Source: a virus. Taken from it: DNA of 23,731 nt. The position numbers and the translations under genes are program-made. Location of the stretch: the IMG/VR virus record IMGVR_UViG_3300009691_000210, positions 1 to 23,731 of that record, one strand, 5' to 3'. Below are positions 7,807 to 23,450 of this stretch, piece by piece (the first letter of the stretch is position 1; every line of letters starts with the position of its first letter). The notes under the pieces were generated by a model. The model was not told where the DNA came from. It saw only the letters and a list, made by a program, of their open reading frames with translations, and did not search any database.

Positions 7807-8487
7807 ATGGCCCACGCCTACCTCATCCCCGTCGCGGAATTGCCGCAGTACATCCCCGGGAGCTTCCTGGAGCAATTCCGCGTCCGCCCCGTCGAGGTCA
7901 AGATCTCGACGGCCGGAGCGCTCGGGATCATGGCCTTCGTCTGGCGTCCGCTCGGGGAGGCGAACTACAGCGCGCCGATCACGTCGAGCCCGCTCTCCTC
8001 GTGGACCTATGACCTGGAGGGCGCCTTCGCGATCATCATCTTCGGCGTCGGCACCTACGTGCTCAATTCGGTTTACACAATCGACGAGCAGGGCGCCGTG
8101 ACCCGGACGGGTGGGGCGATCGACACGGTCACTTCCACGCGCTACGACCTTCGCGAGAAGAAGGGCCAGGCGGCCACCGACATGTGCCTCGGGTGGATGG
8201 AGCCCGCTGTCAGGCCCCCGCTCACGTCGTGGGGCGCCGACGTGAAGGAGCACTACGCGGCGGTGCTCCACTACCTGCTCAAGAGCCACGTCGGGATGGC
8301 GCCGACGGAGGCCGCGGTGGGCGATGCCAACCTGCGCTTGCGCTTCGAGGACGCGCGCGAGTGGTTCCAGCGCATCGGCAAGGACCGAGGCGAGGCGCAA
8401 GACCTGGTGGACAGCAGCACCGATCTGCGTGTCGGTGACACGCTACTGCTCCCGGTGAGCAGCGCAGAGCCGGTGGGGTGGATCTGA
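7807..8487 (+). CDS. Head-tail connector, Mu gp36-like (DUF1320 type), with inserted beta domain
   Basis: This 226-residue protein matches the position of Mu gp36. Family-like sequence occurs in two parts: an N-terminal segment YLIPVAELPQYI (residues 5-16) and a helical C-terminal part (about 112-226) including WMEPAVRPPLTSWGADVKEH and HYLLKSHVG, as in adaptor proteins that sit beneath the portal. Between them, residues 28-110 hold a beta-rich insertion ending in GTYVLNSVYTIDEQG that also occurs in the sheath of this phage. Usual gp36 proteins are about 140 residues, so the insertion accounts for the extra length. The ATG starts three bases after the gp35-like stop. The stop overlaps the next start as TGATG. 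The connector role is inferred from family and order. Confidence 0.72.
   Translation: MAHAYLIPVAELPQYIPGSFLEQFRVRPVEVKISTAGALGIMAFVWRPLGEANYSAPITSSPLSSWTYDLEGAFAIIIFGVGTYVLNSVYTIDEQGAVTRTGGAIDTVTSTRYDLREKKGQAATDMCLGWMEPAVRPPLTSWGADVKEHYAAVLHYLLKSHVGMAPTEAAVGDANLRLRFEDAREWFQRIGKDRGEAQDLVDSSTDLRVGDTLLLPVSSAEPVGWI
7888..8136 (+). other. Recurrent virion beta domain, copy A (in gp36-like protein)
   Basis: Residues 28-110 run from VEVKISTAGALGIMAF to GGAIDTVTS. They align with copy B1 in the sheath (IKIKITNAGAIATMKF ... GTYVLNSTYDIG ... GGGINTVTQ), sharing the string GTYVLNS-Y and the trailing GG.I.TVT hairpin. This copy lacks the leading GTGTGTVT strand seen in copies B1 and C. Confidence 0.7.
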
Positions 8488-9050
8488 TGCCGCTCTCCGG
8501 CGACTTCGCCCGCCTGCGCCAGGTTGAGCGTGGTCTGCAGGATCTGACACGCACCAACGGTCGCGCGCAGCGCACGATCGGCCAGGCGGTTGGACGTGAG
8601 GTGCAGGGATTGCTCCGCGAGCAGCACGCTCGCGGCATCGCCCCGGAGGGCACGCCCTGGCCGGCGACGGCGCGTGGGAAGCCCGCGCTCCTCAGCCGCA
8701 AGATCCCGGGCTCGTTCAGCCGCAGCATCGCCGCCGGCGCTGTCGCGTTCCGATCGGAGATCGACTGGCTCTCGGCACATCACGAGGGCCACGTGTTCCC
8801 GCCGCGCGCTGTCGCCGACCGGGCGGTCATCCTGCGGTTCAACCGCAAGGGCCGGCTCGTGTCCGAGCGGCGATTCAAGCGCCTCAAGCGCGGCGTGGCG
8901 GTATTCGCGCGGGCGCATGCGATCCGGCAGCGCGTGCTGCCGCCACGCCCCATCTATCCGACGGGATCGATTCCGTCGCGGTGGGCCACAGCAATCAACC
9001 GCGGCGCCCTTGAGGGGATGCAGCGCTGGTATCAGCGTGCGACGAGGTGA
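8487..9050 (+). CDS. Virion morphogenesis / tail completion protein (P2 gpS, Mu gpG-like)
   Basis: The 187-residue product has the hallmarks of the phage virion morphogenesis family: an N-terminal helix-rich segment (RLRQVERGLQDLTRTNGRAQ), a central APEGTPWPATARGKPALL (residues about 50-67) like the family's 'PDG.P(W/Y)..R' signature, and a C-terminal RPIYPTG motif. These proteins act in head completion or head-tail joining. It is basic and likely cytoplasmic until assembled. The ATG at 8487 overlaps the upstream stop (TGATG). A GTG at 8478 would add three residues, but the overlapping ATG is the more usual arrangement here. Its exact assembly step is inferred from homologues. Confidence 0.75.
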   Translation: MPLSGDFARLRQVERGLQDLTRTNGRAQRTIGQAVGREVQGLLREQHARGIAPEGTPWPATARGKPALLSRKIPGSFSRSIAAGAVAFRSEIDWLSAHHEGHVFPPRAVADRAVILRFNRKGRLVSERRFKRLKRGVAVFARAHAIRQRVLPPRPIYPTGSIPSRWATAINRGALEGMQRWYQRATR

Positions 9051-9053
9051 CGG

Positions 9054-9509
9054 ATGCATACTGCTCCGACCTCGCCGCTGACGACGCTCGCCGTCGCCCT
9101 CCGCGAGGCGTCGACGCTGAAGGGTGCGGCGCAGGTGCTCGCGGGCGCCGACAAGCTCGCCGTGCAGGGGGCGCCGCCGCGCATCGTTCTGTTCCCGCTC
9201 CAGGGTCAGTACGAGAGCGCGACTGACAACTCCGCGCTTCGGGATCTGGAGCTACAGATCGCGGCTCGCATCTGGGCTCGGGACATCGACGGAGCTTGGG
9301 ATTTGCAAGTGCGCCTCCTCCAGGCGCTCGAGGAGCAGGGCGCGGCGGCGGGGCTCTATTGGCGACTTGGCTCTTGTGCGTGGGACACCGAACCGGACAC
9401 CACGCGACAGGGCCAGGAGCTCGAGGTGATCTTCACGGTGCGGCTCGCCGTCGACCGCGTGGCGACGCCGACCGGAAAGATCGATGCGGTTCAATACACG
9501 AAGGTCTGA
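9054..9509 (+). CDS. Probable tail terminator, Mu gp37-like
   Basis: This 151-residue protein stands between the morphogenesis protein and the sheath gene, where Mu encodes gp37. It has the alpha/beta pattern of small tail-terminator proteins: an N-terminal helix, a strand with PPRIVLFPLQGQYE (about 41-54), a central helix LQVRLLQALEEQGAAAGLYW (about 84-103), and a final strand LEVIFTVRLAVDRV. Such proteins cap the tube and sheath at the head-proximal end. The ATG lies three bases after the previous stop and is preceded by GACGAGG. No diagnostic motif allows certainty; order, length and fold pattern support the call. Confidence 0.55.
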   Translation: MHTAPTSPLTTLAVALREASTLKGAAQVLAGADKLAVQGAPPRIVLFPLQGQYESATDNSALRDLELQIAARIWARDIDGAWDLQVRLLQALEEQGAAAGLYWRLGSCAWDTEPDTTRQGQELEVIFTVRLAVDRVATPTGKIDAVQYTKV

Positions 9510-9510
9510 C

Positions 9511-9675
9511 ATGCCCGAAGAGAAGATTTCCCTCGAGGAATGGATCCTCCTCGAGCGGGTACCGCCCGCCCATGCCCGGGCCGCGCTTGCGGCCAGGGGA
9601 TGGGACGAGAGCGAGCCACGAGCGGCCGAGGAGTTTCGAGCCGCCCTCGACGACTTCTTGAACCGGAGGCTGTAA
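9511..9675 (+). CDS. Small acidic protein upstream of sheath (gp38 position)
   Basis: This 54-residue, strongly acidic helical protein (MPEEKISLEEWILLERVPPA...) lies directly after the tail terminator and four bases before the sheath start. Mu has a similarly small gene (gp38) in this place. The ATG at 9511 has AAGGT six to ten bases upstream and follows the upstream stop by one base, so it is preferred over an in-frame ATG at 9484 inside the preceding gene. The repeated charged helices suggest a helper or adaptor for the sheath, but no family was recognised and no function can be assigned. Confidence 0.6.
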   Translation: MPEEKISLEEWILLERVPPAHARAALAARGWDESEPRAAEEFRAALDDFLNRRL

Positions 9676-9678
9676 TCC

Positions 9679-11445
9679 ATGGCGCTCGGCGAAGCGACGT
9701 TTGAGATCCTCACCGGCGGAGGGCAGCAGCGCACCAGCGCGGCCGTGTCCGCCAAAACGATCGTTCAGCTCGGCGTCTCGCCGGGCGGCGACGAGGCCAA
9801 GCTTTACAAGTTCAGCGACCTCTCGGCGATCACGGCGACGCTCGATACCGGCCCGCTCGCCGAGGCGTGTGCCCTGCGGCATCGGACGGGACTCACCACC
9901 TACGCCGTCCCAACCAAGCCGAGCCAGGCCGGCGCGGTCGGAACGGTGACTCAGAAGGGGACCGGAACCGGCACCGTCACCGTCGGTACAGCGCCGCACA
10001 AGGCGATCAAGATCAAGATCACCAACGCGGGCGCCATCGCGACCATGAAGTTTCGCGTTTCCTACGATGGCGGTACGACCTATCAGCCCGAGGTGACCTC
10101 CGCCGACTCCGGCGGTGGCAGCTTCGTCTATCGCGTGCCCGGGACATTCTGCACACTCACCTTTGCTGCTGGCACGTATGTGCTCAATAGCACGTATGAT
10201 ATCGGTGTCGATGGGACCGTTACGATCGGTGGAGGCGGCATCAATACCGTCACCCAGGCGAGCGATCCGATCGACAATTACGACGTGGTCGTGAAGGTGG
10301 CGAAGGGCGGCGCGCTCGGCGTGGCCATCTTGCGCGTGAGCCTCGACGGCGAGAAGAGCACGCTGCCCGACATGCTCATTCCGTCCGGCGGAAAGGTGGT
10401 GGTGTCCGGAACAGGTCTCGTGCTCACCTGTGCGAACACCTTCGTCGTCGACGAGACCTACAGCTTTCTCGCCGCTCCGCCGGGGTTTTCGACGACCGAT
10501 CTCCAGAACGCCATGGTAGCGCTCCGAGGCGATGCATCAGCGCCACCGGTGGCCCTGGTTCACGTCATCGGTCTACCGTCGAGCGCCGCGAATGCGTTCA
10601 GCGCGGGCTCGACGCTCGATACCCAGATCGATACCGCCTTCAGTACCAACAACTTCGACTGGCAGGGGCTCGCCGAGTGCCCCTATAAGGACGATACGAT
10701 CGTCTCGGGCGGGGCGGCCATCGCCGACACGGCGGACACCGACGCCGCGATCACCTCAGCACGCGTCGGGTCGACGTTCGATCGCGTGGCCATCTGTGTG
10801 GGAACGCACCGGATGACCTCGCCGATCACCGGGCACAAGCTCAAGCGCCCACTCGGGTGGGCCCTCGCCGCCCGGTATGCGGACACGGAACCGCGTCAGG
10901 ATGTCTCCGCCGTCGCCGGCGGTGCTCTCCCGATCGTCGCGATCGGACGCGACGAGCGAACTGCAGCGACGACGCTGCACGACGTACAACTCAACGTCGC
11001 CCGGAGCTACATCGGTCGCTCCGGGGCGTTCCTGGCGATCGAATCTGGCGGGTTCGGCTGGCGCAACCTCACGACCGACGCAAGCTATCAGGATGCGGGG
11101 GGGGTCCGTGTGCTCGACGTGGCAGTGGCAGCGCTGCGCGTGGCCGGCCAGCGTTACCTGGGCGATCGGCCCGCGACCAACCCCGACGGCACGATCGAGG
11201 AGAAGGCGGCGCGTGCGAGAGAGACCGATCTCGACGGCGCGATCAAGCGTGCGACGGGGCTCCTCCGCGGTGGGGATTTCGATGCGCCACAAGCTTCGAT
11301 CGCCTCCGCCACTGTGCTGCGTACCTCGCAGCTCGGACAGTCGCCGCGTCGGCTCGACGTGCAGTACACGCTGCAACCGCTCGGATTCGTGTCGTCGGTG
11401 GCGGGCAAGGTCAGGTTTTCAGGTGTCATCTCGCTGGAGGCATAA
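9679..11445 (+). CDS. Contractile tail sheath protein (DUF2586 type) with two inserted beta domains
   Basis: This 588-residue protein should polymerise around the tail tube and contract on infection. The C-terminal half is family-like: TTLHDVQLNVARSYIGRSG (431-449), GVRVLDVAVAALRVAGQRYLG (475-495), GTIEEKAARARETDLDGAI and a final beta strand region (LGFVSSVAGKVRFSGVISLEA). Residues 94-192 and 195-268 are two tandem beta domains inserted before the first conserved sheath domain. Copy B1 resembles the insertion in the gp36-like protein, and copy B2 (VVVKVAKGGALGVAILRVSLDG) is a more diverged relative. The insertions probably face outward on the tail. The gene ends flush with the tube gene (stop then ATG at 11446), the usual sheath-tube order. 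Confidence 0.85.
   Translation: MALGEATFEILTGGGQQRTSAAVSAKTIVQLGVSPGGDEAKLYKFSDLSAITATLDTGPLAEACALRHRTGLTTYAVPTKPSQAGAVGTVTQKGTGTGTVTVGTAPHKAIKIKITNAGAIATMKFRVSYDGGTTYQPEVTSADSGGGSFVYRVPGTFCTLTFAAGTYVLNSTYDIGVDGTVTIGGGGINTVTQASDPIDNYDVVVKVAKGGALGVAILRVSLDGEKSTLPDMLIPSGGKVVVSGTGLVLTCANTFVVDETYSFLAAPPGFSTTDLQNAMVALRGDASAPPVALVHVIGLPSSAANAFSAGSTLDTQIDTAFSTNNFDWQGLAECPYKDDTIVSGGAAIADTADTDAAITSARVGSTFDRVAICVGTHRMTSPITGHKLKRPLGWALAARYADTEPRQDVSAVAGGALPIVAIGRDERTAATTLHDVQLNVARSYIGRSGAFLAIESGGFGWRNLTTDASYQDAGGVRVLDVAVAALRVAGQRYLGDRPATNPDGTIEEKAARARETDLDGAIKRATGLLRGGDFDAPQASIASATVLRTSQLGQSPRRLDVQYTLQPLGFVSSVAGKVRFSGVISLEA
9958..10257 (+). other. Recurrent virion beta domain, copy B1 (sheath)
   Basis: Sheath residues 94-193. 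It starts with GTGTGTVTV, continues KIKITNAGAIATMKFRVSYDGG, and ends FAAGTYVLNSTYDIG and GGGGINTVTQ. At DNA level, CCGGAACCGGCACCGT (9962-9977) is identical to 17272-17287 in the baseplate J copy. Confidence 0.75.
10261..10482 (+). other. Recurrent virion beta domain, copy B2 (sheath)
   Basis: Sheath residues 195-268, directly after copy B1. It shows the same strand order: VVVKVAKGGALGVAILRVSL, then SGTGLVLTCANTFVVDETYSF. It lacks the leading GTGTGTVT and the trailing GG.I.TVT hairpin, so it belongs to a shorter subtype. Confidence 0.65.
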
Positions 11446-11907
11446 ATGGCCACGATCAAAGGACAGGAATTCCAGCACGCGACGATTGATCTGCAAGTCG
11501 CGGGCGATATGGGATCCGTCACGATTCGGACCTTCGGCAGGCTCGAGTATAAGATCGGCGCCGAGAAGAAACCGGTCTATCGCGCCGACGGGAAAACGGT
11601 CGGTTACACGATCGACAACGAGAAGCTGTCCGGGAGCATCAGCATGCTGCAGAGCGAGTGGAAGGCCCTCAAGGAGAGGGTCGCCACCGCCTATCCGACG
11701 CTCGGCATCGGACAGATCGAGTTCGATTGGACCGTCACCTACGGCAACAACATCGCCACGCTCATGACCGACAAGTTACGCGGCGTGATGTTCAACGAGG
11801 AGCCGCGCTCGTCGCAGAGCAACCAGGATGCATTGATGGTCGACATCCCGTTGTTCATCTCCGAGGTCGAGCCGCACGGCGGGGCGTTCATCAAGTACGC
11901 CTCATAA
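11446..11907 (+). CDS. Tail tube protein (DUF2597 / Mu gpM-like)
   Basis: This 153-residue protein follows the sheath without a gap and should form the inner tail tube through which DNA passes. Its length, beta-rich pattern (ATIDLQVAGDMGSVTIRTFGRLEYK; KPVYRADGKTVGYTIDNEKLSGSI; IEFDWTVTYG) and order match DUF2597-type tube proteins that accompany DUF2586 sheaths. A long amphipathic helix (MLQSEWKALKERVATAYP) fits the tube-subunit helix on the outer wall. No signal or membrane segment is present. The chaperone gene begins nine bases after the stop with AAAGG as ribosome site. Confidence 0.85.
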   Translation: MATIKGQEFQHATIDLQVAGDMGSVTIRTFGRLEYKIGAEKKPVYRADGKTVGYTIDNEKLSGSISMLQSEWKALKERVATAYPTLGIGQIEFDWTVTYGNNIATLMTDKLRGVMFNEEPRSSQSNQDALMVDIPLFISEVEPHGGAFIKYAS

Positions 11908-11916
11908 AGGAATCTC

Positions 11917-12636
11917 ATGCAGGTCAAAGCACCCTCCCCCGAGGAGTTGGCTGCGCTCCTCGAGCAGCATCCGCACCGCCATCCGGAGAAGGCCACGATC
12001 ACTGTCATCGGCGACGGTGGCCGGGCGGTCCGTCTCCCGGTGCTCTTGGGAAATCCGTCGGGGGCGTGTCGCATGCCATCCGATAAGCCATCGTCGCCCG
12101 TCTGGGGGTCGCTCCTCGGAGCGGGTCTCCGCGTCCGGTCCGAGCCAACGGACATCGGCGAGCAGCTCGCGATCGATTGCGTGCTCTGTCCCGAGCGGTG
12201 TATCTGGACGCAGTGGGTGGGGCGGTGGCCGGGACTGCCACGCAAGGTAGCGGACCTGCTGCTGCAGAAGATCCGATCGCTCCCCGGAACCGTCGAGGTG
12301 CCGTGGGAGGGCGACGAGATCCCGGAGCCGATCGCCTCCGCTCTCGCCGCCCATCCGCGGGCGGTATGGCGTCGCCTGCGCGTGCCTGGCGATCCCGTCA
12401 TCGTGATCGATCCACCTCCGGCACCGGTCTGGCGGATCTTCCAGGATGCCATCGAGCGACCTCACGCCGATCTGTGGACCGCCGTGCGCGAACTGGCCGA
12501 GGGGCGCGTCATCGCGAGCGCACCAACCGCCATCGGTGAAGCCATCGACCGATGGCCGGGGATCGCCGTCCTTCTTGTCGGAGAAATCAACCGGCTCGTC
12601 GGGGCCGCGGCGGAGGTCGAGTTGGGGGAGTGGTGA
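11917..12636 (+). CDS. Putative tail assembly chaperone
   Basis: This 239-residue protein is placed between tube and tape measure, where contractile-tailed phages encode a chaperone that coats the tape measure during tail assembly. It is not recognised by motif. The N-terminal 60 residues are a charged helix and strand (SPEELAALLEQHP), and a cysteine cluster CVLCPERC (C88, C91, C95) follows. The second half contains several short helices, consistent with helical chaperones. AAAGG lies six bases before the ATG. The next gene overlaps its stop in the -1 frame, the usual arrangement for two-part tail chaperones made by frameshifting or coupling. It is longer than a typical gpG-like chaperone (about 140 residues), so the role is inferred from position. 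Confidence 0.5.
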   Translation: MQVKAPSPEELAALLEQHPHRHPEKATITVIGDGGRAVRLPVLLGNPSGACRMPSDKPSSPVWGSLLGAGLRVRSEPTDIGEQLAIDCVLCPERCIWTQWVGRWPGLPRKVADLLLQKIRSLPGTVEVPWEGDEIPEPIASALAAHPRAVWRRLRVPGDPVIVIDPPPAPVWRIFQDAIERPHADLWTAVRELAEGRVIASAPTAIGEAIDRWPGIAVLLVGEINRLVGAAAEVELGEW

Positions 12637-12791
12637 CGCGGTGGCGAGCCGCGCGGGATGACCCATGGCTCGCCGCCGAGGCGCTGCTGGCGCTGATGGG
12701 GGTGACAGCGCCGACGCAGAACCAGCAAGTGGGTGCGCTCCTCGTTTCGGAATTCGGTCTCCGTGTGATCCATGCGCTCGAGAGAAAATGA
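12633..12791 (+). CDS. Small -1 frame partner of the tail assembly chaperone
   Basis: The 52-residue product (MTRWRAARDDPWLAAEALLA ... VIHALERK) starts at a GTG that overlaps the previous stop as GTGA, and ends three bases before the tape measure ATG. The reading frame is -1 relative to the upstream gene and stays open back to a stop at 12537-12539, giving a 97-base overlap. This matches the G/GT arrangement of tail chaperones, where the second frame is reached by -1 slippage. A possible slip site is TTG GGG GAG at 12622-12630. GGGGGAG also lies two bases before the GTG, so ordinary reinitiation is equally plausible. Helical composition fits a chaperone tail that binds the tape measure. Confidence 0.5.
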   Translation: MTRWRAARDDPWLAAEALLALMGVTAPTQNQQVGALLVSEFGLRVIHALERK

Positions 12792-12794
12792 CCG

Positions 12795-14444
12795 ATGCCG
12801 CCGCTTCAATTCCAGCTCGCGCTGACGGGGAACTTCGCCGCCGCACTCGGTCCTGTCAATCGCACCCTCGGCGAGACGGACCGAAATCTCGAGAAGGCCC
12901 GTCGGAATGTTCGCGCCTTCGAGTCGCAACTGGGCGGGTTGCAGGCGGGGGCAGGTGGGTTCGGATTCAATCTCAGCGCGCTCTTCCAAGGCGGCTCGCT
13001 GTTCACGCTCGACTTGGCGCAGGCCGTCCATCTGGCCGTCGACGCGGTCAAGGCGCTCGTCGGCGCCATGGCCGAACTGGGGAAGGAGATCGTCAAGACG
13101 GCTGCCGAGGCGCAGGATCTCAACCTCGCCGTCCAACTCGACGTGGGCGAGCGCGGCGCGGGCGCAGTTCAGCAGCTGGCCGACAGTTTTGCGAACACCC
13201 GCTTCGACGATGATGAGATCCGACGATCGCTTCTGCCGCTCCTCGAGCAGGGGGTCACGGACACCGCACTGCTCGACGATCTGGCGACGGCCGCCGCTGA
13301 CGTGGCGGCGCGTCGTGGCCAAGGCGCCGAGGGGCTGCGCTCGGCGCTCGGCGCGTTCCAGCGCATCGCGCTGAAGGGCGAGGTCGACGGCCGCGCCCTG
13401 CGCGAATTGGCGATCGGGGAGGCCGCATTCTTTCAGGATCTTGGACAGCTCCTCGGCGTTTCGACGAAGCGCGCCGAGGAGTTGTCCAAAGCCGGCAAGG
13501 TCAAATCCGAAACCCTTCTCTCCGTCGCACTCAACCAGGTCGCGCAGCGGGAGGGCGGCACCCTCGGTACCGCCTCCCTGGCCGCCGGCCGCACCCTCGG
13601 TGCGACGCTCGAGCGCCTCTCCAACCTCCCCGGCAACCTCCTCAAGCAGCTCGCCGACACGCCCGGCCTCCATCGCCTGCAGAATGTTCTGGACAATTTC
13701 ATCGAAGTCCTCTCCGGCCCAGAGGGCGAGCGCGTGATGCGGGAGATCGGCAACCTCCTCGCCTTCGTCGCGGAGTCGCTGTTTTCGCTCGTGTCCGGCG
13801 AGGGTGGACTGCAGAGGATCACCTTCGTGGTGAGGTCGATCGCCGCTGGCGTGAGAACATTCTGGGAGGTGATGCAGGCGGGATCGAATGCGACCCTGGC
13901 CATCGTCGACGGGATCTCCGACGCTTACCACGCCGTAGCCCGTGCTATCGATAACGTCGTCGATGCGATCGGTCGGTCCATCGATCGGACGAAGGATCTG
14001 TTCTCCGGGACGCTCGACCGCGTCCGCGGTTTGTTCGTCGGAGACGCTGTCGAGGAAGCGCGGGAAGCGGGGCGGGCGCTCGGCGAGGCGCTACCGGAGG
14101 GAGCGCAGGAAGGACTCGACGCGCGAAGTCCCTCGCGCAAGATGATGCTGCTCGGCGCGGGTGCCTCGGAGGGCTTCGCGCTCGGTGTCGAGTCCGGCGC
14201 CGGCGGGGTGCGCTCGGCGACTCGACGCGCCATCGTCGATACGGCCCTCGGCGCGAGCGGAGAGGGCCGTCTTCTCGCCGCCCCGGCGGCAGCGACGACG
14301 CTCTCAGTGCCCGTCGAGGTCAACGTGTACGCGAGCGGTCGCGACGTAGAAGACCTGGCCCAGACCGTCGAGCAGGGGGTGCGCGTGGCGCTGCGTCGCG
14401 CGTTCGACGAGATCGGCTATGGACTCGGCGCGCAGGGGGTCTGA
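12795..14444 (+). CDS. Tail tape measure protein
   Basis: This 549-residue, almost wholly helical protein should set tail length and be packed inside the tube. Features are an N-terminal coiled coil (NRTLGETDRNLEKARRNVRA, 22-41), a hydrophobic or amphipathic stretch (71-100), the common tape-measure middle domain with RALRELAIGEAAFFQDLGQL (200-219) and KVKSETLLSVALNQ, a second hydrophobic region (about 320-375), and the C-terminal signature LDARSPSRKMMLLGAGASEG (441-460) with FALGV. At about 0.15 nm per helical residue the tail would be roughly 80 nm, a rough estimate. It starts three bases after the small chaperone and ends TGATG with the next gene. No peptidase or lysozyme domain is visible. 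Confidence 0.88.
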   Translation: MPPLQFQLALTGNFAAALGPVNRTLGETDRNLEKARRNVRAFESQLGGLQAGAGGFGFNLSALFQGGSLFTLDLAQAVHLAVDAVKALVGAMAELGKEIVKTAAEAQDLNLAVQLDVGERGAGAVQQLADSFANTRFDDDEIRRSLLPLLEQGVTDTALLDDLATAAADVAARRGQGAEGLRSALGAFQRIALKGEVDGRALRELAIGEAAFFQDLGQLLGVSTKRAEELSKAGKVKSETLLSVALNQVAQREGGTLGTASLAAGRTLGATLERLSNLPGNLLKQLADTPGLHRLQNVLDNFIEVLSGPEGERVMREIGNLLAFVAESLFSLVSGEGGLQRITFVVRSIAAGVRTFWEVMQAGSNATLAIVDGISDAYHAVARAIDNVVDAIGRSIDRTKDLFSGTLDRVRGLFVGDAVEEAREAGRALGEALPEGAQEGLDARSPSRKMMLLGAGASEGFALGVESGAGGVRSATRRAIVDTALGASGEGRLLAAPAAATTLSVPVEVNVYASGRDVEDLAQTVEQGVRVALRRAFDEIGYGLGAQGV

Positions 14445-15040: not shown

Positions 15041-15044
15041 GACT

Positions 15045-16258: not shown

Positions 16259-16653
16259 TGGCGATCGACTACGGCACGGACATCGCGGCGCTCGACGATC
16301 TCCCAGACCCGGAGGTACTGGTCTCCGGGGAGAGGAATGCGGCTTACGCGCAGGGGCGGCGCCTGCTTACCCCGACGGGTGCGCTGGAAGCGATCGGCGA
16401 TGCCGCGCCCTACGACTCGATCGACCTCCGCGAGCAACTCGGCGCGCGCATGAGCGAGCAGGATCTCCTTGACCTGCAGGCGCAGGTGCACCAGGTCCTC
16501 TCGCAGGATGAGCGCGTGATCCGCGTCGAGGCACAGCTCACCGATACCGGTCGAGCGCTGCAGGTCGAGGCGCGCCACGAGGGAACCGCGGGACCGTTCG
16601 ACCTGGTGATCTCCATCGACTCCGTCACGACCACGTTGCTGAAGGCATCCTGA
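16258..16653 (+). CDS. Baseplate wedge protein, Mu gp46 / gp25-like
   Basis: This 131-residue protein fits the gp46/gpW-type wedge, which builds the sheath-initiating ring of the baseplate. The N-terminal part has DYGTDIAALDDLPDP (4-18) and GRRLLTPTGALEAIGD, like the family's aspartate-rich start and 'R.L.TP.G' element. A helix (SEQDLLDLQAQVHQVLSQDE) and a strand-rich C-terminus (RVIRVEAQLTDTGRALQVEA) follow. Both ends overlap neighbouring genes as TGATG. The protein comes before baseplate J, as in Mu and P2. Family assignment is good. Confidence 0.78.
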   Translation: MAIDYGTDIAALDDLPDPEVLVSGERNAAYAQGRRLLTPTGALEAIGDAAPYDSIDLREQLGARMSEQDLLDLQAQVHQVLSQDERVIRVEAQLTDTGRALQVEARHEGTAGPFDLVISIDSVTTTLLKAS

Positions 16654-18188
16654 TGGCACTCCCAACCCTCGACGATCTGCTCAAGATCCCAACGCAGGAT
16701 GAGGTGCTGGATCAAGAGGTCTTCCCCGAGCTGCGTACGCGCGGCGCGCGGGTGACGGATTGGATCGTGGGCGGTGTGTATCGAACCATGGCCTACGTCG
16801 TGGCACTGCTCCGCCTCGACGTGCGCAAGTCCATCGCTGCCTTTGCCGCCGCCGGTTTCGAGGATTACGTTTTCGGCCTCGCCGCCGCTCCTGCCGGGAT
16901 CGATGTGACCGCGTGGGCCGCGCTCGTCGCGAAGCAGCGCTATGGTGTCGATCGCATCGCGGCGACGTACACGAATCGCACGATCCGACTCACGAACTCG
17001 ACGGGAACGCCCTACGGCCCGGTGTCCGCCGGCGGGATCATTTTGCAGTTCACGGCGACGGGGAACCGTTACATCCTCGACGGAACCGTGACGATCCCGG
17101 CCAGTAGTTTCGTCGATGCCACGTTCCGCTCAGAGTTTGTGGTCGACTCCGCGGCGGGCCGGACCTACAACGACAGCGCGAGCGCGACGATCGTGCTCGT
17201 CACGGCGAACTATCCGGGCGTGACAGCGACGAATCCTGCGCCGACCTACAGCTCGGTATCGCAGGCCGGCGCCGGAACCGGCACCGTGACGCCCAGCGGA
17301 TCCCCGTCGGGGAATCATTCCGTCGCCGTGCGCATCGATGCCTCTGGCCAGGTTACCGCGGCGACCTGGTCGACTTCTCTCGACGGGGCCGCGTGGGTAT
17401 CGCAGGGCGCTGCTGGCAGCGTGACCAACCTCGGTGGGTTCGGGATCAACATCACGCTCGCCAATGGAGCGAGTGGGAATCCATCCTTCATCGCCGGTAC
17501 CTACTACTACTTTTCGACGCCAGGATCGGATGTGACGCAGGTCGGGCGCGACCAAGAGACGCCGACGGAACTGGGGGCGCGCGTCCGCGGCCTCTGGCCG
17601 TCGCTGGCCTTCGTGAAAGACAGCGCCGGCAATTGGATCTGGACCTCACCGACGGTGAATGCCTACGAAACGCTGGCCAAGAGTGCCAGCGACCAGGTCA
17701 AGATCGCCTTCGCGAAGACCGATGCGACGGTCAATAACAAAGTCAAGATCTATATCGCTGCACAGGGAGATCTGGTTCCGTCGGGCGTACTCTCGACGGT
17801 GAGCGCCTTCTTCAATTCACGATCGATGCTGACCGATCTCCCCGAAGTACTCTCACCGACGAAGCGCACGATCACGCTCGCCGCGGTCACGGTGACCGTG
17901 AAGCAGGGTCAGCTCGCAACCGCACAGGGAGCACTGCAAACGGCGCTCAAAAACTATCTTGGCGGGGTAGACCCGAAGGTGGTGTTGGGCATCAATGGTC
18001 GCGTCGACCGGGCCTACATCCTCTCGCTCATTCGAAACACCACGGGGGTGGTGAAGGTCAGCGACGTGACGTTGACGATCAACGGGGTCGCCGCCGATCT
18101 CCAGCTACCCGTTACGGCAGGCGCGTTTGAACTGGCTGTCTGGACGCAGGCAGTAGCCTCTGATTTCACGTGGGTCACGGAGGCATGA
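16653..18188 (+). CDS. Baseplate J-like protein (Mu gp47) with inserted beta domain
   Basis: This 511-residue protein is a J-like wedge that links baseplate ring and fibers. The N-terminal ~130 residues (TLDDLLKIPTQDEVLDQEVF; IAATYTNRTIRLTNSTGTPY) and the motif GRDQETPTELGARVRGLWPS (298-317), equivalent to the family's 'GaDaEsdeelR.R', support the call. The C-terminal domain (ITLAAVTVTVKQGQLATAQG; YLGGVDPKVVLGINGRVDRA; VVKVSDVTLTING) is also typical. Immediately before the GRDQETP motif, residues 205-292 hold a beta insertion that begins GAGTGTVTPSGSPSG and ends AGTYYYFSTPG; it also occurs in the sheath and tailspike. J proteins are usually about 350-400 residues, so the insertion explains most of the extra length. 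TGATG and ATGATG overlaps join it to both neighbours. Confidence 0.85.
   Translation: MALPTLDDLLKIPTQDEVLDQEVFPELRTRGARVTDWIVGGVYRTMAYVVALLRLDVRKSIAAFAAAGFEDYVFGLAAAPAGIDVTAWAALVAKQRYGVDRIAATYTNRTIRLTNSTGTPYGPVSAGGIILQFTATGNRYILDGTVTIPASSFVDATFRSEFVVDSAAGRTYNDSASATIVLVTANYPGVTATNPAPTYSSVSQAGAGTGTVTPSGSPSGNHSVAVRIDASGQVTAATWSTSLDGAAWVSQGAAGSVTNLGGFGINITLANGASGNPSFIAGTYYYFSTPGSDVTQVGRDQETPTELGARVRGLWPSLAFVKDSAGNWIWTSPTVNAYETLAKSASDQVKIAFAKTDATVNNKVKIYIAAQGDLVPSGVLSTVSAFFNSRSMLTDLPEVLSPTKRTITLAAVTVTVKQGQLATAQGALQTALKNYLGGVDPKVVLGINGRVDRAYILSLIRNTTGVVKVSDVTLTINGVAADLQLPVTAGAFELAVWTQAVASDFTWVTEA
17265..17528 (+). other. Recurrent virion beta domain, copy C (baseplate J)
   Basis: J residues 205-292: GAGTGTVTPSGSPSG, VAVRIDASGQVTAATWSTSL and FIAGTYYYFSTPGSD. 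It lies between the first beta domain and the conserved GRDQETP motif. A 16-base string at 17272-17287 is identical to sheath copy B1 (9962-9977). Confidence 0.75.
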
Positions 18189-18955
18189 TGGCGACGTACG
18201 AGGAGTGGATCACGTCGCAGCGTCTCCCGTGGCTTGGCACGAAGGGGCGTGCGATCGTCGGCGCCTTCGCCGCCGTGCTCGGCGACCGCGCCCTCGAGTG
18301 GGCGAAGCAGGCGTTCCTCGAGCATCTCCCCGAGAAGGCGACCGCCGCCAGCAACGCGCTTACCGCGAGCGAGCGACAGATCGAGCCCGGCCCGACGGAA
18401 GCGAATGCCGCGCTCGCTACCCGCCTGGTGCGCGCCGTCGCGCAGTGGCGCCTCGCCGGTGCGCCGCTCGGGCTGCTGCTCGCGCTCTACTACGCCGAGT
18501 TCGCCGAGGCGGTCATCGTCCAACAGAACGGGCGAGGCTACAACCTCAGCGGAACGTCCAATCTCGACGACATCGCCGACCTCACGACGCAACCAGCATG
18601 GTACATCGTCACCACGCTGGGGCTCAATCCCGCGATCCCAGCGAGCGCCGACGGTCGGCCGGCCATCGCCTCGGGAACGGTGCCCTGGTGGACCTTCGAC
18701 GTGAGCCACATGGACACCGCCGGGAATCAGTTCACGAGTCGGTTTGCGATCCTATTCCCCGTCGGGAACACGGTCGATCTATCGGTGCAGGCGAACCTCG
18801 ATCGCATCCGTCGGGTGATTCAGCGGTGGCGTCCGGCGAAAGCGACGTGCGTCACGATCATCGATGTCCTGTCGGGAGCGGTGTGGGGTTGGCCCGCCTC
18901 GCAGAATTGGGGTGGATTCAGCTGGGGTGGGTCCATCGCGACCTATAGCCCCTGA
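18188..18955 (+). CDS. Baseplate / tail fiber attachment protein (Mu gp48-like)
   Basis: This 255-residue protein follows J and precedes the fibers, as Mu gp48 and P2 gpI do, and should join fibers to the baseplate. It begins with a helical part (YEEWITSQRLPWLGTKGRAI; LATRLVRAVAQWRLAGAPLG) and ends with RRVIQRWRPAKATCVTIIDV followed by WGWPASQNWGGFSWGG, a segment seen in many wedge proteins of this type. Two ATGs overlap the J stop (18185 and 18188). The second is preferred because GGAGG (18179-18183) is then four bases away instead of one. The fiber gene starts 13 bases after the stop. Confidence 0.72.
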   Translation: MATYEEWITSQRLPWLGTKGRAIVGAFAAVLGDRALEWAKQAFLEHLPEKATAASNALTASERQIEPGPTEANAALATRLVRAVAQWRLAGAPLGLLLALYYAEFAEAVIVQQNGRGYNLSGTSNLDDIADLTTQPAWYIVTTLGLNPAIPASADGRPAIASGTVPWWTFDVSHMDTAGNQFTSRFAILFPVGNTVDLSVQANLDRIRRVIQRWRPAKATCVTIIDVLSGAVWGWPASQNWGGFSWGGSIATYSP

Positions 18956-18967
18956 GGAAAAGAACCG

Positions 18968-19909
18968 ATGCCCTCCGATTATACCTCATCTCCGAGCGCG
19001 ACGCAGGCGCCCTCGCCGACGCCGGCGCAGGATGCGCTTCCGATCGCTCGCCTCCCCGTCGATGGGGAGGCGGCCAACGTCGCGAGCATTACCCAGATCG
19101 TCAAGATGCTCGCCGATGGCCTCGGCTGGAGCTGGGCGAACGCTGTCCACAAGGCCGCAGCTCGTACCATCACCGCGATTCTGACCTTCGCCGAGAAGGC
19201 GATTTTGAACGGTCAGAGCGGTGACACCAACCCTGCCGTCGAGACCACGTCGCCGCCGGCGGCGAGGAAGCTGCTCTGGAAGATCAGCCTCGGAGGCGTA
19301 GTCTATCTGCGATGGTACTCATCGCTGACCGAAAGCGGTTCTGAGTGGGTGGTCAACGCCCACTGGGATGGCACCAATTGGCAGTTTGACGGAGCGGGAG
19401 CAGCCATCCGGCTGCGATTGTTCGCGTTTGGAACAAACGGATTCTCATTGCAATACAATAGCAGCGGTGCGGCCTTCGCCGAGGGGGCGTGGGTCAATGC
19501 CCTCACGCTGGCGAACAGCGATAGTTCTCTGGCGGCCAAGGGGGATGTGAAGGCGAAACGCTATCGGTCGAGTGGTACGGCGCTGGTCGCTGGGGATTTC
19601 ACGCTCGGCGCCGGATGGGGCGACACTGCGACCGTTGCTGTGATCAGCGGAGATGACACTGCCGGAACTTGTACCGTGACGGCTGGGGGGGTAGGAATGG
19701 CTCAGAATCCGACTCTGACTCTCACGTTCAAGGACGGAACCTATACGGCTGCGCCGAGCGTAATTGTGACACTGGCGAATGCCTCATCTGATGCTGCAAC
19801 GAGAAACATCAAGTGGGTCGTAACCGCGACGGATTTTACCGTCACATGGCTCGGTGGGCCGGGGAACGGGGATACGTTTATTTTCCGCTGGCAGGTGACT
19901 GGGCATTAA
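18968..19909 (+). CDS. Tail fiber protein 1
   Basis: This 313-residue protein opens the fiber region. Residues 1-65 are a Ser/Pro/Ala-rich leader and a short helix, probably the baseplate anchor. The middle (about 65-205) holds repeating beta strands with LRWYSSLTESGSEWVVNAHW and LANSDSSLAAKGDVKAKRYR, like fiber shafts. The C-terminal domain (about 210-313) starts GAGWGDTATVAVISGDDTAG and ends NGDTFIFRWQVTGH, a fiber-tip type also found in the 21071-22072 protein, and probably the receptor-contact or trimerisation domain. GAGGA overlaps the previous stop and serves as ribosome site. The TAA stop overlaps the stop of the minus-strand lipoprotein gene (TTAA). Confidence 0.75.
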   Translation: MPSDYTSSPSATQAPSPTPAQDALPIARLPVDGEAANVASITQIVKMLADGLGWSWANAVHKAAARTITAILTFAEKAILNGQSGDTNPAVETTSPPAARKLLWKISLGGVVYLRWYSSLTESGSEWVVNAHWDGTNWQFDGAGAAIRLRLFAFGTNGFSLQYNSSGAAFAEGAWVNALTLANSDSSLAAKGDVKAKRYRSSGTALVAGDFTLGAGWGDTATVAVISGDDTAGTCTVTAGGVGMAQNPTLTLTFKDGTYTAAPSVIVTLANASSDAATRNIKWVVTATDFTVTWLGGPGNGDTFIFRWQVTGH

Positions 19910-20487
19910 CGAAGTTCAATTGACACTTCTCTAGCATAGAACCATTGTGAATACACACCTGTATCCACAAATCTGTGGTTGCCGCCGAGGTCCAGTCCAT
20001 CAAGGTTTTTACATTTGGGTGGGAAGGTTGTTCCTCCGACCAGCGATGAGATCGTCATGAACGGCGGCACATGGTTTGAGGGATCTGGTACTTTGAGGAG
20101 CGTCCGATGAGGACCGATCGCCGCAACATTTGGATCCGACATCCCAATCGTTCCTTCTCCGGCACAATCCCGTGCCTGAAAGTCGATATTAATTGACCCT
20201 TTAGAGTCAACCACGGCGCCAATGTCAGGACGGAATGCTTTCAATGTGTCGACGAAGAATCCCAGATCCTCTCCGCCCGGTCCAATGAGGTGAGGCACCT
20301 CCGTGGCCGTCCCTGACGGCCCTGTTTCACCCTTCGGGCCCGCAGGGCCAGGGATGCCTGGCCGCTGTTGCAGCTCGGCCAGGCGGGCTTCCAGGGCCGC
20401 TGCATGGGCCTCGAGGGCGTCGAGCCGTCGGTTGTCGTCTTGGCAAGCAGAAACAGTGACGATCGAAACGAGCAACAGGGTACGCAT
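19906..20487 (-). CDS. Collagen-repeat lipoprotein (cargo/moron gene)
   Basis: This 193-residue protein is transcribed against the virion operon. Residues 1-15 form a lipoprotein signal with lipobox VSAC (12-15), so C15 should be acylated and the protein anchored in the envelope. Gln at +2 favours the outer membrane by the usual Gram-negative rule. A coiled coil follows (LDALEAHAAALEARLAELQQ, 22-41), then a short collagen segment of Gly-X-Y triplets (44-59), which together suggest a trimer. The rest is a beta-rich globular domain with two cysteines (C108, C159) that may form a disulfide. The ATG at 20487 has GGAGGT six bases upstream; an upstream in-frame ATG at 20592 would bury the signal. 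It has its own promoter. Possible roles are superinfection exclusion or surface change in lysogens; both are inference. Confidence 0.78.
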   Translation of the reverse strand: MRTLLLVSIVTVSACQDDNRRLDALEAHAAALEARLAELQQRPGIPGPAGPKGETGPSGTATEVPHLIGPGGEDLGFFVDTLKAFRPDIGAVVDSKGSINIDFQARDCAGEGTIGMSDPNVAAIGPHRTLLKVPDPSNHVPPFMTISSLVGGTTFPPKCKNLDGLDLGGNHRFVDTGVYSQWFYAREVSIELR

Positions 20488-20501
20488 GTTGAGACCTCCA
20501 T

Positions 20502-20518
20502 GCCCCGCTGAGCGGGGC
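20502..20518 (-). promoter_or_regulatory. 5'-UTR hairpin of the lipoprotein gene
   Basis: GCCCCGC (20502-20508) pairs with GCGGGGC (20512-20518) around a three-base loop. On the minus strand it lies just after the predicted transcription start and two bases before the GGAGGT ribosome site (20494-20499). A strong hairpin near the 5' end can stabilise mRNA, and no T-tract follows. Confidence 0.55.
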
Positions 20519-20537
20519 GTGCGCCGGGATGGCGATG

Positions 20538-20566
20538 AGTATAGCGATCGTTCACCGGCCCGGCAA
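20538..20566 (-). promoter_or_regulatory. Sigma70-like promoter for the lipoprotein
   Basis: Read on the minus strand, TTGCCG (20561-20566, -35) is followed after exactly 17 bases by TATACT (20538-20543, -10). Agreement with consensus is 4/6 and 5/6. The start point would be near 20530, giving a leader of about 43 bases before the ATG at 20487. Own promoters are a hallmark of moron genes expressed in lysogens. Caution: promoter consensus differs in some high-GC hosts. Confidence 0.6.
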
Positions 20567-20596
20567 GCTGAACCGATTTGCAGGTATTTCATGATT

Positions 20597-20646
20597 CGCC
20601 GCCTCGTCGGGCGAGCGCCGGGATGCGAGCGCTCGAGGGGGCGGCG
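20597..20646 (+). other. Two-tier GC hairpin before the second fiber operon
   Basis: Outer stem CGCCGCC (20597-20603) with GGCGGCG (20640-20646), and inner stem CGAGCGC (20612-20618) with GCGCTCG (20629-20635) with a ten-base loop. It ends five bases before the GAGGAGA ribosome site (20652-20658) of the gene at 20661. There is no T-tract. Confidence 0.55.
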
Positions 20647-20660
20647 AGCACGAGGAGAAC

Positions 20661-21074
20661 ATGAGCACCTACCACGGCCCCCCTCAGAGTCTGGGCCAGC
20701 GCCTCGCCCTCGCGGGCGCGACCCTTACTACCAGTTACACCGGCGGCGATAGCCTTGGTCTCAAGGGCACGGCAGCGACGGGCGCGAGCCTGCGTGCCGT
20801 CTTCGCCGCTGGCTCGACCCTCACGTCGATCGAATTCCGCTGGGAGGTCAGCGACGACGGAACGACGTGGGAACCGGTAGCCGGAGTGCGCGGGAGCGAT
20901 GGCGTCGTGCTCAACGAGCTGAGCCTGGCCAAGGTCGACGGCTCGACGGTAAGAGAGGTCTTCTCGACGGAGAGTCACACCGATCGCCCGTACGTGCGAC
21001 TCGTCGCGAAGCACACCGGCGGAGCCGCGGCGGCCGGCGACAAAGCGCAGGCCGACGTGAGGTTTGTGCCATGA
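20661..21074 (+). CDS. Small beta-rich fiber-region protein
   Basis: This 137-residue protein resumes plus-strand transcription after the lipoprotein interruption. It reads as a single beta-sandwich-like domain: LAGATLTTSYTGGDSLGLKG, then LRAVFAAGSTLTSIEFRWEV, SDDGTTWEPVAGVRGSDG and a final PYVRLVAKHTGG. No catalytic motif or signal peptide is seen. It overlaps the signal-peptide fiber gene by four bases (ATGA), so the two are probably translated together and their products may work together, for example as a fiber adaptor or chaperone. The GAGGAGA ribosome site is very good. No family was recognised with confidence. Confidence 0.6.
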   Translation: MSTYHGPPQSLGQRLALAGATLTTSYTGGDSLGLKGTAATGASLRAVFAAGSTLTSIEFRWEVSDDGTTWEPVAGVRGSDGVVLNELSLAKVDGSTVREVFSTESHTDRPYVRLVAKHTGGAAAAGDKAQADVRFVP

Positions 21075-22072
21075 AGCGTCTCCTCCTTCTCCTCGCCCTC
21101 GCCCTCCTCGCCACTCCAGCGACGGCGCAGCGACGGACCGGGTTTCCCACCACGAGTCCCGGTCCGCGATGGGAGGTCGCCGGCGCGCAGCAGAACGGTG
21201 TCGGAGCCGTCAACTTCTCGACGGGGATGAGCGTCTCACTCTCGGCCGGCAAGCTCACGGTGTCGATTCTCGGCGGTATTCCCGTCCCCGCGACGCGCAC
21301 GGTCGCGACCACAGCGCCCCTGGGAGGCGGCGGGACGCTGGCCAGCGACCTCACCCTTACCTGTGCCACGTGCGTCACCGCTGTCACCGCAAGCGGCGTG
21401 CTCTCGTCGAGCGGCGGCACGACGCCAAACCTCACCTTGACGGGCGTGATCCCGATCGCGAATGGCGGCACCGCGGCAGCGACGGCAAGCGCAAACCGGG
21501 TGTTCGCCGGGCCGACTTCGGGTGGGGCAGCGGCACCGGGGTTCCGCGCCCTCGTCGCCGCCGACATTCCGTCGGCCGCCGGGGACGTGACCGGCGACTA
21601 TTCAGCGGTCGTCGTCGGGAAGCTCCAGGGACGCACCGTCACCTCGACGGCGCCGAGTGATGGTCATGTGCTCGGCTGGAACGCAGGCTCCTCGCAGTGG
21701 GAGCCGGGGGTGCGGCTGAGGGGCTACGGCACCGCGCCGACGTGCACCGTCGGCGTCGGGGCAGGGACAGGAGCTACGTGCGCCGTCGCCGGAAATCGGT
21801 ACGCGTTCCTGCTGACCGTCACCACAGGAACAGGACCGCTGTTAAATAGTCGTTTTGTGCAGCTGACGTGGGCAGTTGCATTTCCTGCAGTACCAATTCT
21901 GATGACCGTGCCCGCTGATTACAACAGCAAGTCCACGCGCAGCGTTTCTGTCCATAGCGAGCTGGATGCTGTCGATCCAGCGACGACAACGGATATATTT
22001 CTTTTTTCCGACGGTGATACACCGACCGCAAGCGTTGTGTACCGATTTAATTGTATTGTTACAGAGAGATAA
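21071..22072 (+). CDS. Fiber-like protein with Sec signal peptide
   Basis: This 333-residue protein begins with a classic signal peptide: MKR, a leucine-rich core (residues 4-13) and ATPATA|Q, with probable cleavage after A19. The mature part looks like a phage fiber: TGVIPIANGGTAAATASANR (124-143), SAAGDVTGDYSAVVVGKLQG (168-187), DGHVLGWNAGSSQWEPG (197-213), then a tip domain (about 219-333) related to that of the first fiber (GAGTGATC...; ...VVYRFNCIV). Five cysteines (98, 101, 225, 237, 328) fit an exported protein. A signal peptide is odd for a cytoplasmically assembled tail part. The ATG overlaps the upstream stop, so this start is well supported; the next in-frame ATG is at 21227. DNA from about 21840 is AT-richer, suggesting tip exchange. 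Confidence 0.7.
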   Translation: MKRLLLLLALALLATPATAQRRTGFPTTSPGPRWEVAGAQQNGVGAVNFSTGMSVSLSAGKLTVSILGGIPVPATRTVATTAPLGGGGTLASDLTLTCATCVTAVTASGVLSSSGGTTPNLTLTGVIPIANGGTAAATASANRVFAGPTSGGAAAPGFRALVAADIPSAAGDVTGDYSAVVVGKLQGRTVTSTAPSDGHVLGWNAGSSQWEPGVRLRGYGTAPTCTVGVGAGTGATCAVAGNRYAFLLTVTTGTGPLLNSRFVQLTWAVAFPAVPILMTVPADYNSKSTRSVSVHSELDAVDPATTTDIFLFSDGDTPTASVVYRFNCIVTER

Positions 22073-22079
22073 AGAGATA

Positions 22080-23450
22080 ATGCGTCGTTTCGATTTAGTT
22101 GCTGACGGTGGTGCCATCCCTGATGATGACGCGCACGACAGCAGCTCCGCGCTGCAGGCCGCGCTCGATGCGGCACGGAGCGACGCGGTCGTGATTGTGA
22201 CCGCTCCGCCGGGGAGCTATGTGCTCCGAACCCCCGTCGAGGCCCGATTCGGCACGCTGGCGCCGCGCCTCGACGTGTCGCTGCCGGGGGTGGTCTTCCG
22301 ACCGCGCGTCGGTCCAGATCACGACGCGATCGCTCTCTCGGCGACGGCGGCGACGGCGGCCTTCCGCTTCGCGGACTTCACGTTCCTTGGCGATGGCGGG
22401 TCACCACCGTCCTGCCGTCGGGCGCTCTACGTCGACGGCTCCGACTACGCGGCCCACCGCCTCGAGCGCCTTTGGTGTGTCCAGGTGGCGGCCCGGGAGT
22501 CGGTACTGGCGTTCGGGACCGGCTCGGCTCTCATCGCTGACGGACTGCGTTTCATCGCGTGCTCGGTTGTCGAGGGGAAGAGGGCCCTCCTCGACGCGGA
22601 CTACGTTTTTGCGTTGACAGTGCGTGACTTCCACGCCGTCGGTGCGGGCGCTTTCGGCGAAATCCACTACACCGGGGGCTGGGCCGCCGCCGGCATCCGG
22701 ACGCGGCGCCACGAAGTGCCGATCGGCTACTACCGACGGAGCCAACTCCTCGTCGAGGGCGGCCACATCGACGGATGCGACAGCGGAATCAAAATTTTGA
22801 ACTCCAACGGTTTGCCCAACGGCCCGTTCGGTACGCTGCGCCGAGACCGAGTCCGCGGCACTGGCCAATTGCTACTCGCCGGCGCCCCGACAGGGGTTCT
22901 TCCCTCGACGCTGGAGCTGCGGATCGATGTCGGGGGCAGCGCGGGTAAGGCAACTTGGTCGTGGCGACACGAGCCAGCGGGGTGGGGGCGGGGTTGGACC
23001 GAGTGGGCGTCCGCTGGCGCCGCCGTGTCAGCGATGCTAGGCACGACGGGGATCGTCGCGACTCTTAGCGGAGGGCAGTACGCGGCAGGGGACGTGTACC
23101 TCTGCTACGTGACGGGGATGATGCGATTCGGCGACGTGCAAATTCGCAGCGTCGGCGTGCAGCTGACGGGCGTCGGCGACACCGCCGCGTTCCACTTGGC
23201 CGAGGTAGACCGCGTCCACCTCGACGGCTGCTACGCGAGTGGTCCCGTCAACCAGGACGGGGTTCAGTTGTGGGACTGCGGTTCGACAACGATCGAGCGC
23301 TGTTGTTTTGACAACGGTGCGTCGAAAATCACGGGACGCTCGGGCTACGGTTTCTTGGCGCCGCGCTACGTGCGCGTCGTCGATAGCGTGTGCGGCTCGA
23401 TCGCGATGCCTTCGACGACGGAGCTTCACGTCGAGCGAACGAACGAATGA
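22080..23450 (+). CDS. Right-handed beta-helix tailspike protein
   Basis: This 456-residue protein begins with FDLVADGGAIPDDDAHDSSS (4-23), the pectate-lyase-like tailspike start, followed by ALQAALDAARSDAVVIVTAP and many short strands with turns (LERLWCVQVAARES; GLRFIACSVVEGKR; LLVEGGHIDGCDSGIKILNS; VDRVHLDGCYASGPVNQDGV), as in a parallel beta-helix. Such spikes bind or degrade surface polysaccharide. Acidic residues are present, but no catalytic pair can be assigned by eye. Residues 258-345 interrupt the helix with a beta domain (GTGQLLLAGAPTG ... GGQYAAGDVYLCYV) shared with baseplate J and sheath. The ATG at 22080 is chosen because it gives the intact family start; an upstream in-frame ATG at 21966 lies in the fiber gene. 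The ribosome site is weak. Confidence 0.8.
   Translation: MRRFDLVADGGAIPDDDAHDSSSALQAALDAARSDAVVIVTAPPGSYVLRTPVEARFGTLAPRLDVSLPGVVFRPRVGPDHDAIALSATAATAAFRFADFTFLGDGGSPPSCRRALYVDGSDYAAHRLERLWCVQVAARESVLAFGTGSALIADGLRFIACSVVEGKRALLDADYVFALTVRDFHAVGAGAFGEIHYTGGWAAAGIRTRRHEVPIGYYRRSQLLVEGGHIDGCDSGIKILNSNGLPNGPFGTLRRDRVRGTGQLLLAGAPTGVLPSTLELRIDVGGSAGKATWSWRHEPAGWGRGWTEWASAGAAVSAMLGTTGIVATLSGGQYAAGDVYLCYVTGMMRFGDVQIRSVGVQLTGVGDTAAFHLAEVDRVHLDGCYASGPVNQDGVQLWDCGSTTIERCCFDNGASKITGRSGYGFLAPRYVRVVDSVCGSIAMPSTTELHVERTNE
22851..23114 (+). other. Recurrent virion beta domain, copy E (tailspike)
   Basis: Tailspike residues 258-345: GTGQLLLAGAPTG, LELRIDVGGSAGKATWSW, GWTEW, then GTTGIVATLSGGQYAAGDVY. Strand order matches copies B2 and C, with the Trp-containing strand and the final '(A)GxY' strand best preserved. 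It divides the beta-helix between the HIDGCDSGIKIL rung and the DVQIRSVGVQLTG rung. Confidence 0.68.

Follow-up and report, generated by a model that had tools for sequence, protein, structure and literature searches.

How does one small domain come to stand in the neck, the sheath, the baseplate and the spike of a single virus particle, and what might it be doing in all of those places? The question is raised by the window (the whole stretch of DNA analysed here, 23,731 nucleotides of the IMG/VR viral record IMGVR_UViG_3300009691_000210), in which a beta-strand module of ~85 residues occurs five times in proteins that otherwise have little to do with one another. Here, we ask whether the five segments are truly one family, whether they were inserted into their host proteins, where they came from and what use they may have been.

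The Phage and the Proteins That Carry the Domain

The gene order of this 23.7-kb record is that of a Mu-like head followed by a contractile tail, read from the plus strand. Among the relatives found, the nearest are the contigs L003 and L004, whose sheaths are 46–51% identical to that of the window; further off by sheath lie Thermus phage Riverbug, Meiothermus phages MMP7 and MMP17 and Myxococcus phage Mx4. As single-protein queries against viral or genome contigs, sheath and baseplate J brought back two sheath relatives only.

Four proteins of the window carry the domain. The gp36-like head–tail connector (7807–8487, +) matches no Pfam or PHROG model and was named by alignment to the annotated gp36 proteins of MMP7 (L007), Riverbug and Mx4. 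The tail sheath protein (9679–11445, +) was identified by tblastn and alignment to annotated sheaths, and its model finds solved sheaths in Foldseek. The baseplate J-like protein (16653–18188, +) matches Pfam PF04865 (E 3.6e-5) and aligns with MMP7 bpJ, and the tailspike, a pectate-lyase-like beta-helix (22080–23450, +, from a putative start codon), matches PHROG 2234, tail spike (E 6e-4), and, below the cut-off, Pfam PF12708 (E 0.006).

Three other genes of the window deserve a word. The head maturation protease (3632–5188) has a four-cysteine, zinc-ribbon-like stretch (CSDCG...CSAC) between its protease and scaffold-like parts. Within the tail-fibre region, an ORF on the opposite strand (19906–20592, −) combines a lipoprotein-like signal, LLLVSIVTVSAC, with a collagen-like stretch, GPAGPKGETGPSG, and is possibly a cargo or lysogenic-conversion gene. 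A small protein at 20661–21074, related to an ORF of L004, has an Asp-box-like hairpin, FRWEVSDDGTTWEPV, and weak matches to PHROG 5707 and F5/8 type C; it is not a member of the domain family.

Five Copies of One Domain

Copy A lies within the N-terminal part of gp36 (7888–8136, +) and ends in a trailing hairpin; its profile match (7891–8097) covers profile positions 19–85 only, and strand 1 is thus lacking. The sheath holds copies B1 (9958–10257, +; profile match 9958–10218) and B2 (10234–10482, +, matched by the profile throughout). Copy C (17265–17528, +; profile match 17268–17528) stands in baseplate J directly ahead of its GRDQETP motif, and copy D, the most divergent (22851–23117, +; profile match 22854–23117), stands inside the tailspike. 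These are essentially the places at which a preliminary description of this DNA, made from its letters, had put five segments of a single family.

When the window’s own proteins are compared by pairwise BLAST, A matches B1 (41% identity, E 9e-16), C matches D (8e-8), and B1 matches both B2 (1e-6) and C (9e-6). Since these E-values come from a small database and were calculated without composition correction, homology was tested in three further ways. The alignment scores of A–B1, D–C, B1–B2, B1–C and B2–C were higher than those of all 400 shuffles. Hidden Markov models built without the copies of the host protein family being tested, and run against 12,992 ORFs, recovered sheath B1 (5e-15) and B2 (1e-12), gp36 A (2.5e-7) and tailspike D (2e-6) and, among the matches listed, copies that other phages have in baseplate, capsid and fibre proteins. 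Finally, the full profile found 134 domains at E < 1e-3 among the ORFs as they are, but not one once the ORFs had been reversed or shuffled. All of these comparisons of sequence agree that one homologous family, with common descent of its copies, occupies the neck connector, the sheath (twice), baseplate J and the tailspike.

Two finer likenesses had been remarked on before. That A and B1 share GTYVLNS-Y and a trailing GG.I.TVT is real in the alignments. A 16-base string identical in B1 and C (at 9962 and 17272) also exists, but its value as evidence is another matter: a repeated 16-mer occurs in 35% of order-1 random sequences of the window’s length, and the window contains two longer 17-mers common to unrelated genes. 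We have therefore discarded it as a mark of recent transfer.

Does the window hold still more copies? Profile–profile comparison found none in the fibre, gp48, the decoration-like protein, p20661, p20867, the major capsid protein (MCP), the tube, gp37 or the hub. The decoration protein had looked like a sixth copy by BLAST (E 0.028), an appearance that this comparison did not confirm.

What Kind of Domain Is It?

No model in Pfam, PHROGs or NCBIfam describes the domain, the open-access literature searched holds no description of it, and the family is previously undescribed. AlphaFold2, given copy C with 94 aligned copies, predicts seven strands with high confidence (pLDDT 93.6, pTM 0.84); in a model of the full sheath, B1 (pLDDT about 87–97 per 10-residue block) and B2 (about 94–97) appear as high-confidence beta domains with a like order of strands. 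With the copy C model as query, Foldseek returned no match in the Protein Data Bank (PDB) below E 0.001, the top one being Xanthomonas FlgL (5zj0; E 0.81, prob 0.66, TMq 0.50), which is not significant. A viral library gave one significant match only, to a protein of 472 residues (E 2e-5, TMq 0.79) that we infer to be the MMP17 sheath, for which PMC9230969 lists the same length.

The Asp-box hairpin S-x-D-x-G-x-x-W/Y occurs, by a relaxed pattern, in 75 of 113 copies (A, B2 and D of the window are without it), and 24 of 94 copies match PF02012 weakly. Glycines and apparent core residues make up most of the conserved columns, among which no ligand site is evident, and no solved carbohydrate-binding module was matched significantly by Foldseek in the PDB.

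Empty Sites and Occupied Ones

If the domain is an insert, then relatives should exist in which the site is empty. In the gp36 proteins of MMP7, Riverbug and Mx4, copy A is wholly absent and both of its flanks align. Copy C follows the equivalent of residue 173 of MMP7 bpJ, with no MMP7 residues inside its span. Set against relatives without them, then, A in gp36 and C in baseplate J are by alignment clean insertions. Baseplate J has exactly two such sites, after MMP7 residues 22 and 173, and copies stand at both in L054, in L073 and, as judged from residue position, in L078; an insertion site in the major capsid protein is common to L033, L046 and L085.

The sheath tells a different story. 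The sheaths of MMP7, Riverbug, Mx4 and Mushu have a single copy, equivalent to B2, and copies of the B2 type are present in phages of Meiothermus, Thermus, Myxococcus and Faecalibacterium. Judged by this distribution, B2 is ancestral to its sheath clade, a normal part of that sheath subfamily, and B1 is a copy added to it by tandem duplication. Inserted B2 probably is as well, although only in comparison with the wider DUF2586 family: residues 24–278 of the sheath of L085, a more distant phage, align to 161 positions of PF10758 (DUF2586) in a match just under the curated cut-off, and the excess of about 94 residues fits one domain copy. For the tailspike, we found no relatives in the viral contigs or phages searched, and D therefore has no empty site with which to be compared.

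Clean insertion in each host, which the preliminary description had named as support for its claim, describes A and C, with B1 an extra tandem copy, and does not describe B2, which is standard in its sheath subfamily. One might still suppose that glycine- and threonine-rich beta segments have been aligned by composition alone, as such segments can be, or that each belongs to the ordinary core fold of its host family, as B2 in its subfamily partly does. We regard this as very improbable. The copies are recovered by profiles that had not seen their host family and nothing is recovered from reversed or shuffled ORFs, which speaks against it, and relatives lack A, B1 and C outright; for those three the reading is refuted.

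Other insertions occur in these proteins. The baseplate J protein of L004 (16892–18937) has a second, different one (GTILIDSEQITYTSV...GLGRGANGTTAATHA) after a GNRY segment, a motif known from other phage proteins. The gp48-like tail protein of L003 (14674–15690) and L004 (19380–20438) has an insertion of roughly 60–80 residues that is missing from gp48 of the window (18170–18955); considered as a further copy of the domain, it was rejected on profile comparison (E 0.012, probability 3.5%).

The Family Beyond the Window

Viral contigs gathered with a sheath-derived profile and the pattern GTGTVTPSG were added to the loci already collected, and the profile search traced the family well outside the window, to 115 ORFs at 90 loci. 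With the domain masked, BLAST assigned the host proteins to sheath (84), baseplate J (19), gp36 (3), major capsid (3), fibre (1) and tailspike (1); the remaining four ORFs received no class in this way, one of them being the L085 sheath, named by Pfam DUF2586. The scan was based on the sheath and so biased toward sheath copies, and 84 of 115 is not a fair frequency. Most sheaths have a single copy, and no partner protein was seen with one.

Scanned as whole records, the window has five copies, and G001–G007 and G016 have four. In L085 (record G003, 23,070 bases), copies occur in the major capsid protein and the adjoining ORF, in the sheath and in a further ORF that lies between the sheath and gp36; gp36 itself is without the domain. 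It is the best single genome that we found for placement in the head. A tail-fibre protein with the domain, related to the window’s fibre protein, occurs in G004 and G016, and unnamed ORFs in the structural regions of L085 and L056 carry it too. By these matches, the same family is present in other virion proteins of related phages: the major capsid protein, the tail fibre and ORFs of the structural region.

How Did the Copies Spread?

A tree of the domain (113 rows, 89 columns and many weak forks) places the gp36 and fibre copies within the group of sheath copy 1 (SH-aLRT 94) and the tailspike copy, on a long branch, within the group from the middle site of baseplate J (SH-aLRT 96). The capsid and neighbouring copies of L085, 53% identical to each other, join that phage’s own sheath copy (SH-aLRT 91). 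Copy A of the window scores 148 with its own B1, as against 134 with the B1 of L003 and 106 with that of L004, and A of L003 is most like the B1 of its own genome, whereas A of L004 resembles its own B1 no more than it does the others. This pattern suggests copying within genomes. The sheath tandem copy would have given rise to the gp36 and fibre copies, the baseplate copy to that of the tailspike, and the sheath lineage of L085 to the copies in its capsid protein and the ORF beside it; spread with these donors and recipients is supported by the tree but not proven.

Copy A may even record how it was cut. Its trailing GG.I.TVT is the link that, in the sheath, leads from B1 into B2, and the simplest reading is that A was excised out of register from the sheath tandem, such that the first strand of the next copy replaces its own strand 1; if so, the sheath was the donor.

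What Might the Domain Be For?

The explanation that we prefer, and consider probable as a whole, is that a mobile module has been copied and pasted into loops at the outer face of each host protein, where it would work as an accessory surface, most likely for adhesion: many weak contacts with the envelope of the host cell, or with its glycans, made ahead of engagement by the tailspike. To choose adhesion over structural reinforcement is the weakest step, and we give adhesion roughly an even chance. The precedents favour weak multivalent binding at the surface. The additional domains of sheaths lie away from the tube (PMC9230969), the Ig-like domains of phages serve as accessories at the surface (PMC9022992), and 936 phages have BppA-like modules, in the Dit protein, the tail extension and the neck, that bind host cells (PMC6669499). 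Across the window, L003 and L004, domain identity (0.31–0.66) is much that of the host cores (0.33–0.57); the domains are as conserved as the proteins that carry them and thus neither decaying nor hypervariable. The want of hypervariability counts against adhesion, as do the want of an evident ligand site and that of a significant match to a solved carbohydrate-binding module, and adhesion would be less obvious for gp36 and for the L085 ORF between gp36 and the sheath, as neck proteins present in few copies.

Could the copies instead touch neighbouring subunits and so stiffen, or key together, the neck, sheath and baseplate? We hold this, the main rival, to be possible, if doubtful. The only suggestive match to a solved structure is FlgL, the D2 domain of which is an inserted, outward-facing beta-sandwich common to FlgK, with reinforcement by D2 and D2–D2 contacts both proposed (PMC6155364), and in the window and L003 it is the B1 of the same genome that A resembles most. 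That match is not significant, however, the copies in tailspike and fibre do not lie next to the sheath, and most sheaths have one copy, with no partner protein seen to have another. A bolder form, in which copies in neck, sheath and baseplate dock with one another so that one surface keys unrelated proteins, as proposed for the D2 domains of FlgL and FlgK, strikes us as improbable; were it true, copying within the genome would extend a docking code to new proteins. We also think it unlikely that the module has no function and is a self-folding passenger, spread by illegitimate or short-homology recombination and merely tolerated in exposed loops. The many insertion sites and hosts, the absence of copies at the same sites in relatives and the variable copy number among related phages would suit such a passenger. 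Against it, the same sites are kept in the window, L003 and L004 at roughly 35–55% protein identity, no decayed copies were seen, domain identity matches that of the host cores, and the sheath copy is retained across phages of very different hosts.

Whatever its use, the accessory module would be an unusually clear case of copying around a single virion, with empty sites, likely donors and recipients and repeated independent events that can be identified. Comparison of a single module in five settings, namely capsid, neck, sheath, baseplate and spike, makes the role of an accessory domain directly testable. It matters for annotation too, because the domain can make unrelated proteins match in similarity searches: our search with the sheath brought up the gp36 connector by way of it.

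Comparison with Known Systems

The preliminary description had called such placement across one virion much less usual than that of Ig-like domains, a judgment softened by the BppA-type modules that decorate 936 lactococcal phages (PMC6669499), the nearest precedent. There, too, one type of module is spread over several virion proteins of one phage group, as an internal insertion in Dit, an extension of a tail protein and a part of the neck passage structure, with host binding by the tail and neck modules. The differences are that the 936 phages are siphophages with another type of tail, that no relationship between the modules is detectable (BppA is absent among the Foldseek matches listed and in a profile search of PDB sequences) and that the module here sits in sheath, baseplate J, gp36, capsid, fibre and tailspike.

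Phage Ig-like domains are likewise small beta modules, with an accessory role, that have joined proteins of the capsid, tail, baseplate and fibre (PMC9022992), and our module, like them, occurs in several classes of virion protein. By the account of Fraser et al. (2006) given in that review, some functional classes are limited to one particular Ig-like family, whereas here a single family crosses many classes in one genome. Big_1, Big_2, I-set and FN3 are all missing from the 25 Pfam families listed for 94 members, the nearest bacterial Ig-like match being Big_5 (E 0.095) in one member. The sheath copy is an additional sheath domain of the sort described, as beta-sandwiches, in PMC9230969, where MMP17 and Mushu have two-domain sheaths; the passages of that paper in which sheath proteins are compared do not place the domain in any other virion protein. 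D2 of FlgL and FlgK (PMC6155364, 5zj0) would offer a likeness of arrangement, an inserted beta-sandwich facing outward from the core of a tubular assembly and common to neighbouring proteins, but FlgL is absent from the profile search of PDB sequences, and D2 was matched significantly by neither structure nor sequence. Many copies share S-x-D-x-G-x-x-W/Y with the Asp-box or BNR repeat (PF02012), in the form of one short hairpin per 85-residue domain and not as the repeats of a BNR beta-propeller.

The module would thus seem to be of a kind already known, the virion-decorating modules of which the 936 phages provide the example. What is new, set against the open-access precedents, is a domain family that belongs to phages with contractile tails, that is spread over a larger number of host proteins and whose empty sites are clearer.
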